From contig VGGW01000003.1 of NCBI GenBank assembly GCA_016868395.1, positions 1-38,368 on the forward strand: a stretch of 38,368 nucleotides of DNA. Direction: 5' to 3'. The stretch comes from Bacteroidota bacterium (GTDB lineage: Bacteria; Bacteroidota; Bacteroidia; Sphingobacteriales; Sphingobacteriaceae). Both the position numbers and the translations under genes were made by a program. Of this stretch, positions 4,192 through 34,125 are shown piece after piece (position 1 is the first letter of the stretch; the number at the start of each line of letters is the position of its first letter). Under the pieces are notes generated by a model that searched no databases, was not told the DNA's origin, and saw nothing but the letters and a program-made list of their open reading frames with translations.

Positions 4192-4376
4192 ATTCTAATT
4201 AACTTCGAAAGATAATAATGAATTATGGAATTCAGGTCTTTGACTGTTAAATTTTATTCATAATTGTATCAGGTATTTTCTTCCAAAAGATAAAAACGCA
4301 AACTTTGAAAAGGAGTGCCTTCTATTTTTAGCAAGCTTGAAAATAACGCCATCCTATGTGGTTAGATTTTAATGTT

Positions 4377-4806
4377 TAACCTCAGTTCGATATTAGAAAC
4401 TACCCTTTTGATGCATCTCCTATTGCTCCGGACGCCTATGATTGATTTTTGGAAAGCAATACCTGCGTGTTATCGCTTCCGGCAGTCCTTTCCTCCGGAG
4501 TATTTCCGGCAAAAAATTCTACTTGATTTCAAATGCTCCATCGCCGGAAGATACCTCCTCCGGCAAGGTTTAGTTTACCCGCTGCTGTTTTTCATCGGTA
4601 CGGGCAGTCCGGAAAAAGAAGCACAAACCCGGGTGGCAGCCCTATCTTTCTTGCACTACTGAATATTCGGATAAGGATTCCATTTCCTGCAAAAAATAGG
4701 GCAGAACACAGGACCGGGAGCAACAGACTGAGAAAAATAATCAGGACCCGGCAAGATCTTTTATCAATCTCACCTAAATTAGATTGTTTATATCGAATTC
4801 AGGTTA
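4377..4806. mobile_element. Repeat element copy A (MITE-like / structured intergenic repeat), 430 bp
   Basis: TIRs TAACCTCAGTTCGATAT (4377-4393) and ATATCGAATTCAGGTTA (4790-4806), 15/17 complementary; interior clearly homologous to 20969-21421. Confidence 0.75.
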
Positions 4807-4827
4807 TTTAGGTTATTTATGTCGACC

Positions 4828-20968: not shown

Positions 20969-21421
20969 TAACCGGAGTTCGAAATAAGCAATATTAAAAA
21001 AAATGCCCCTTTAATTGACCTCATGGTGTTCCGAACTCATATTATTTGATTGTTGAAAGCAATACCTGAGTGTTATCGCTTGCTGCAGTCCTTTCCTCCG
21101 GAGTATTTCCGGCAAGAAATGCTACCTGATTTCAGATGATTCGTTGCCGGAAGATACCTCCTTCGGCAAGGTTTAATTTACCTAATGCTGTGCTTCATCG
21201 GTACGGGCGGTCCGCTAATAGAACCCCACGACCTGCGAAGCAAACCCGGGTGGTAGCCCTATCTTTTTTGCACTACTATATCTCAGAATAAGGATTCCAT
21301 TTCCCGGCAAAAAAATAGGGCAGAACACGGGAACGGGAGCTAGGTACCCTACTTTCCAAAAGCTAAGAAAAACAATCAGGCTAAACTTAGCTCGGCAAGA
21401 TGTGTTATCGATATCAGGTTA
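20969..21421. mobile_element. Repeat element copy B (MITE-like / structured intergenic repeat), 453 bp
   Basis: TAACCGGAGTTCGAAAT (20969-20985) and TTATCGATATCAGGTTA (21405-21421) imperfect TIRs; long homology to copy A. Confidence 0.75.
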
Positions 21422-21484
21422 AAATAATGCCTATTCAGGTATTTTCTTAAGCCGGATATTCCAATTTTTTATAGACTTTTGTGC

Positions 21485-33997: not shown

Positions 33998-34125
33998 TAA
34001 CCTTGAAATTGATTGTAAATCCTACCAGCCTGATTATTTTCCTCACCTTAATGATATGAGTTCGGAACACCTTGAGGTCCATTAAAAGGATATTTTTTAA
34101 TCTCGCTTATTTCAAACTCAGGTTG
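33998..34125. mobile_element. Repeat element copy C: internally deleted, inverted derivative (128 bp)
   Basis: TAACCTTGAAATTGATT (33998-34014) ... ATTTCAAACTCAGGTTG (34109-34125); contains atatgagttcggaacaccttgaggtccattaaa, reverse complement of copy B 21009-21042. Confidence 0.7.

Follow-up and report, generated by a model that had tools for sequence, protein, structure and literature searches.

The 38,368-nucleotide window analysed here (the whole stretch of DNA under study, from a Daejeonella genome) carries two copies, A and B, of a hairpin-rich repeat, and the question it raises is whether these hairpins belong to an expressed structured RNA or are simply palindromes in the DNA. The initial annotation described four inverted repeats in each copy (stems 1 to 4) and favoured an RNA from the minus strand because of the positions of G-U pairs. 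All four inverted repeats can be read in the sequence of both copies, but two copies cannot separate chance from selection, and we therefore compared between 113 and 245 copies. With this larger sample the observation was confirmed in part, and its interpretation was supported in part.

The host genome, a 3.0-Mb fragmented metagenome assembly of the genus Daejeonella, was searched for the repeat, and 40 places out of 176 candidates were scored. Alignment of oriented copies together with their flanks gave the borders and shows that the hairpins are held within an interspersed element of about 450 bp, with a consensus running from AACCTGAGTTCGATAT to ATATCGATCTCAGGTT. Full-length copies read in this genome number at least 65, and the end motif has 142 matches in the 3.0 Mb compared to 2 for a reversed control. 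The two copies reported previously are both real, and the window also contains a third, internally deleted copy that had not been noted. The limits of the elements in the window are as follows.

20970..21420, plus strand: full element copy B, terminal inverted repeat (TIR) to TIR (full-length nhmmer match 20969-21422)
20970..20985, plus strand: left TIR of copy B, AACCGGAGTTCGAAAT (consensus AACCTGAGTTCGATAT)
21405..21420, plus strand: right TIR of copy B, TTATCGATATCAGGTT, read from the sequence
4378..4805, plus strand: full element copy A, a member of a subfamily with an extended right end (nhmmer match 4376-4777)
4378-4393 and 4790-4805: TIRs of copy A
about 34003..34125, minus strand: internally deleted remnant of about 125 bp, with both outer ends and no modules

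The element has the hallmarks of a MITE: 16-bp TIRs (AACCTGAGTTCGATAT and ATATCGATCTCAGGTT), target-site duplications (TSDs) of 6–7 bp with the consensus TAAWTTA, and a short length and high copy number (at least 65) without a transposase. Exact TSDs of at least 6 bp flank 29% of 82 copies, compared to 4.3% after random re-pairing of left and right flanks from different copies (2000 shuffles, maximum 12%). With 16-bp inverted ends, TSDs and no encoded protein, the element evidently spread as a MITE, and the ends, target duplications, copy number and patchy distribution together demonstrate its mobile origin.

Among 19 other genomes of the genus, the element was found in 11 by DNA searches, one of which has only an end-like fragment, and in 10 by a stricter structure model; about half of the genus carries it, and copy number is uneven among Daejeonella genomes. 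Outside the genus, the sampled genomes lack it except for a single weaker match in G225, a genome of another genus, and no match was found in the plasmids, phages and viral contigs searched. A match in a genome outside the family (G052) proved to be a chance match within a response-regulator gene. Several relatives have the gene pair flanking copy A side by side with no element in between; the intergenic DNA at the orthologous site is too diverged to align, and there is no clean empty site at the DNA level. A coding origin of the repeat was rejected: substitutions show no codon periodicity (0.13, 0.145 and 0.133 by position), the element has no Pfam match, and its ORFs are broken in other copies. 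We note that copy A contains ORFs of 96 aa (4372-4662) and 92 aa (4533-4811) that could be annotated as genes; both are interrupted in other copies and lack a coding signal. A search for paired TIRs, which covered the genomes in part, revealed no autonomous partner with a transposase, and the only longer forms with both ends in the portion searched are 593 bp and 1099 bp long and non-coding.

The body of the element consists of two inverted copies of one module, and the reverse complement of the right half can be aligned to the left half. R1, a covariance model of the left module built from alignment A2, finds right modules on the opposite strand with E-values, which are rough for this model and for R2 below, from 8e-7 in copy A to 6e-10 in other copies. 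The right module of copy B itself did not reach E≤1 with R1, and its limits rest on self-alignment and on the homologous modules of copy A and other copies found by R1. The modules, which resemble the Rfam motif Flavo-1, are placed as follows, with strands giving the RNA sense predicted by homology.

21085..21177, minus strand: left Flavo-1-like module of copy B (R1 108 bits, plus orientation)
21090..21096: 5' arm of the left basal helix P1/P2, CCTTTCC, with a 1x1 mismatch inside
21165..21171: 3' arm of the left basal helix P1/P2, GGCAAGG
21100..21113: 5' arm of the left long stem, GGAGTATTTCCGGC, which includes stem 2
21146..21161: 3' arm of the left long stem, GCCGGAAGATACCTCC, which includes an arm of stem 3
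21240..21336 (approximate), plus strand: right Flavo-1-like module of copy B, inverted relative to the left, from self-alignment; contains stem 4
21256..21271: 5' arm of the right stem, GCCCTATCTTTTTTGC
21307..21321: 3' arm of the right stem, GCAAAAAAATAGGGC
4482..4574, minus strand: left module of copy A (R1 108.1 bits)
4622..4717, plus strand: right module of copy A (R1 match on the opposite strand, 4717-4622, E 8e-7)

Both modules are built from a basal helix, internal loops and a long stem. Left and right modules have arms of different sequence that nonetheless stay paired, and RNAalifold predicts both the left stem (GGAGTATTTCCGGC/GCCGGAAGATACCTCC) and the right stem (GCCCTATCTTTTTTGC/GCAAAAAAATAGGGC) on either strand. 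In alignment A2, 97.3% of cells are paired compared to 94.2% in shuffles, five pairs are changed on both sides compared to 1.5 in shuffles, and structures slid along the alignment are only 36–56% paired. Folding energies of single copies are mildly unusual (z -1.6 to -4.6), with the left module lower on the minus strand. The four previously described stems fit this architecture to different degrees. Stem 4 (21256-21271/21307-21321) is 89% Watson-Crick over copies and contains the right-module pair with the strongest covariation. Although stems 2 and 3 can be read in the letters, they are local alternatives of a single 14-bp stem (21100-21113/21146-21161) with which they compete; the long stem is paired in 96% of cells compared to 74% for stem 3, which is especially less well kept, and the perfect 9-bp stem 3 of copy A is an exception among copies. 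The left-module pair that covaries best lies inside the long stem; with stem 2 formed, it would be in the loop. Pairing in stem 1 is kept only to a moderate degree (86%).

An Rfam scan of the window, a check suggested by the initial annotation, gave no match at the gathering score (42 bits for Flavo-1, RF01705). Between 20960 and 21430 there is no credible Rfam match, Flavo-1 is not listed even at E≤5, and 20 Daejeonella loci have no match to it at E≤10. Homology to Flavo-1 is instead revealed by the R1 and R2 models. Outside the genus R1 has one strong match, in genome G225, of which 400 kb was read; it contains many modules with the frame AGYCC...GGTTTA, and their basal helices covary (CCCG/CGGG, CCTG/CAGG and CCTT/AAGG). 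Several of these modules are Flavo-1 according to Rfam, on the strand opposite to the R1 and R2 matches. R2, built from the left and right Daejeonella modules only, recovers five G225 Flavo-1 loci end to end, again on the opposite strand, and has no match in 369 kb sampled from other genera. The Flavo-1 units of G225 also occur as inverted pairs, 67–75 nt apart, and one such pair is flanked by TTTTGAAAA/TTTTCAAAA arms, similar to element columns 81-92/390-401.

L409 11230-11326: R2 match in G225, E 4e-6
L409 14133-14229: R2 match in G225, E 9e-6
L411 5229-5366: R2 match in G225, E 8e-5
L420 19058-19146: R2 match in G225, E 3e-4
L409 2988-3093: R2 match in G225, E 0.026
L409 2986-3094/3169-3347: inverted Flavo-1 pair in G225
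L409 14131-14230/14297-14393: inverted Flavo-1 pair in G225

The left module read on the minus strand (CCUU-G-CC-GAA-GG.../...CC-GGA-GG-A-AAGG) follows the order of helices and loops of Flavo-1, namely P1, a 1x1 mismatch, a 2-bp P2, a 3x3 GAA/GGA loop, P3 and a variable terminal stem; the right module has a similar order, but with a 4x3 loop. Flanking UAAACC...GGACU, a high copy number and a home in the Bacteroidota are also shared, whereas the terminal stem differs in sequence and the Daejeonella modules form an inverted pair within an element with TIRs and TSDs. Judged by homology, the modules of the element are relatives of Flavo-1, although the window copies lie below the Rfam cut-off and are not filed as members for that reason. 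The same homology predicts an RNA from the minus strand for the left module, which holds stems 1 to 3, and from the plus strand for the right, which holds stem 4, and these opposite senses argue against the single minus-strand RNA proposed originally. Rfam gives the type of RF01705 as 'Gene; sRNA', and Weinberg et al. 2010 (PMC2864571) list Flavo-1 in Bacteroidetes as a probable RNA ('y') that is not cis-regulatory ('n'). In Flavobacterium psychrophilum, Flavo-1 matches lie sense and antisense to transcripts and many are outside transcripts (PMC9723704). The accessible portions of the Flavo-1 literature contain no link to transposons, TIR/TSD elements or inverted pairs. At five G225 loci (L409, L411, L418, L420 and L421) other dispersed repeats (e.g. 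CTTCGACTACGCTCAGGATGAC) sit within the hairpin loops of Flavo-1 units, as would be seen if the loops were hot spots for insertion.

Orthologous insertions, i.e. copies that share their flanking sequence between species, are informative about selection because the differences between them arose after insertion. In 26 ortholog groups, 4.5% of sites are changed in the left stem and 8.1% in the right stem, compared to 19.0% in the rest of the element (p 7e-38 and 6e-7, respectively). Pairwise counts give 15.1% for the flanks, 17.7% for the TIRs and 21.7% for the outer arms, compared to 3.6% and 5.2% for the left and right stems. The low divergence of the stems has the same direction in 25 of 25 informative groups and holds for G/C and A/T bases taken separately; compensatory T-A/G-C changes are seen in several groups, and the unpaired stretch AAGGTTTAG (columns 199-207) is also kept, with 1% changed. 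The TIRs and outer arms thus decay neutrally after insertion, like flanking DNA, while the paired arms are kept.

Covariation points to the same stems. Of the roughly 14,000 column pairs compared over 201 left-module sequences, 137-185 covaries best; it sits in the central part of the left stem and is T-A in 144 sequences and G-C in 45, with an E-value of about 0.05 under a tree-based null. Among 137 right-module sequences the best pair is 290-348 (C-G/G-C) in the right stem, with an E-value of 1.4. A phylogeny-aware test across the genome on 113 copies found nothing above the null, as subfamily structure dominates. Covariation above background in a multi-copy alignment, which the initial annotation had put forward as a test, is therefore borderline genome-wide (E about 0.05 for one pair), the copies being strongly structured by subfamily. 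Since the stems diverge less than both the rest of the element and the flanks, and contain the top covarying pairs, we infer that selection acts on the pairing in situ, and that purifying selection holds the modules in place while the transposition ends are no longer needed. The earlier suggestion that this is more than palindromic DNA is supported by this retention of paired bases after insertion, by covariation in the stems and by the homology to Flavo-1. Columns 108 and 207 of the left module, which are outside the stems, show a correlated A-T/C-G difference (E about 4); this is probably a lineage difference and possibly a tertiary pair.

The use of G-U pairs to argue for the minus strand did not survive comparison of many copies. 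Changes that would give G-U pairs on the plus and minus strands are equal in the left stem (31 versus 35), and the difference in the right stem (31 versus 20) is not significant. Stem 1 does lean towards the minus strand (19 versus 43), although its two arms are under unequal sequence constraint, which confounds the comparison. Counted relative to the Flavo-1 sense, core-stem G-U/A-C changes are symmetric (66 sense and 51 antisense) and give no reason to prefer an RNA structure to one in DNA.

Based on simple ORF calls, the elements are intergenic; 43% of them lie between convergent genes, compared to 13% of element-free gaps, and they are near stop codons (median 50–67 nt) rather than starts (132–200 nt). 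The convergent enrichment was not seen in the small G225 sample, and may reflect promoter avoidance only. Neither of the two loci examined has an intrinsic terminator (a GC-rich hairpin followed by a T run), and promoter-like signals there are not above chance. The reading that we favour, with a probability of about 0.6, is that this is a non-autonomous MITE-like element with TIRs and TSDs whose inverted Flavo-1-homologous modules serve as an orientation-independent structured RNA element in 3' regions. Read-through transcripts entering intergenic regions from either side, especially convergent 3' regions, would each carry one sense module, and because the sense modules point outward, one per entering transcript, function would be independent of the orientation of insertion. 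The sense module might then shape 3' ends or transcript stability in a manner similar to BIME or BOX elements, rather than acting as an intrinsic terminator. More tentatively, Flavo-1 could be the working unit of inverted-pair elements spread by transposons, forming a domesticated MITE network in the Sphingobacteriaceae and perhaps other Bacteroidota, with dozens of copies in each genome individually selected as orientation-independent 3'-region structures.

The main rival to this RNA model is a role at the DNA level, with the modules acting as extruded cruciforms, single-strand hairpins or paired protein sites in chromosome organisation or recombination. The inverted-pair architecture in two genera would suit such a role, and the symmetry of the G-U/A-C changes, together with Flavo-1 matches that are not tied to the transcript strand in F. 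psychrophilum (PMC9723704), makes it possible, if less likely than the RNA model: the left and right arms differ yet stay paired, leaving no shared half-site for a DNA-binding protein, and the alignment indicates a basal 3x3 GAA/GGA loop of the Flavo-1 type and a 1x1 purine mismatch that are more typical of RNA. If the structure served transposition only, binding a transposase or the replication machinery, inserted copies would be inert, as expected of a purely selfish MITE. The TIRs, TSDs, patchy distribution and lack of an ORF all agree with that, but it is already disfavoured and improbable, given that in 25 of 25 groups the TIRs and outer arms have diverged as fast as the flanks and the stems only a quarter as fast, so that the parts needed by a transposase are those not kept.

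It is similarly unlikely that the module is a trans-acting small RNA that happens to be multicopy. The Rfam type of RF01705 and the non-cis-regulatory listing of Flavo-1 RNA in Weinberg et al. 2010 (PMC2864571) speak for it, but a cis element is a better fit to genomes with dozens of diverged copies, every one retained where it lies, and to opposed modules inside one element, and the promoter-like signal is not above chance. Least probable of all is that gene conversion between copies, rather than selection, yields the conservation of the stems; the T-A/G-C double transversion of the left stem does recur in several ortholog groups, yet loops a few bases away are 19–35% diverged in the same groups and conversion tracts would need to be confined to the arms.

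The favoured reading, of a mobile element with RNA modules maintained in 3' regions, has parallels among other dispersed repeats. REP, BIME and REPIN sequences form inverted hairpin pairs in 3' intergenic regions in more than 100 copies; REPs themselves are short sequences associated with RAYT transposases and are not bounded by TIRs and TSDs. The Daejeonella element shares the inverted hairpin pairs and the 3' intergenic location but has TIR/TSD ends. The nearest in behaviour are BOX repeats (PMC3049150) and bacterial MITEs (PMC9769881). Pneumococcal BOX elements are modular dispersed repeats with a conserved secondary structure and are co-transcribed with neighbouring genes at some loci (PMC3049150); they differ in sequence and phylum, whereas the Daejeonella element has two inverted homologous modules and demonstrated constraint after insertion. 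Bacterial MITEs such as MITECca01 of Cardinium (PMC9769881), Correia elements and Nezha are likewise short, non-coding, intergenic and of high copy number with TIRs and TSDs; the Daejeonella element differs in the post-insertion conservation of its internal modules, in the lack of a parental IS in the portion of the genomes searched, and in that its modules have an ancestry of their own beyond it.

Flavo-1 is a widespread Rfam motif of the Bacteroidota, and here it forms the inverted core of a TIR/TSD element in which the fold is kept copy by copy, which would explain both its high copy number and its lack of strand preference. Orthologous filled sites and many natural variants provide a testable system for its role, and there is a more general caution that some Rfam 'sRNA' families may be modules of mobile elements.

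Several variants of the element were also observed. In one subfamily, which includes window copy A, L012, L015, L027, L061 and others, the right end is longer and a second TIR (TAGATTGTTTATATCGAACTCAGGTT) lies outside the first. Long variants with a different centre number about 14 copies; in these (L068/L120, L106/L127, L115 and L121-L133) the right module is common and the centre unrelated, with lengths of up to 593 and 1099 bp. At locus L108 (G000:C7:27200-28400, about 590-720), a truncated left half of the element runs straight into a short tandem array (CCCCTGTGGTCGGTGTTGTCACCGTA).
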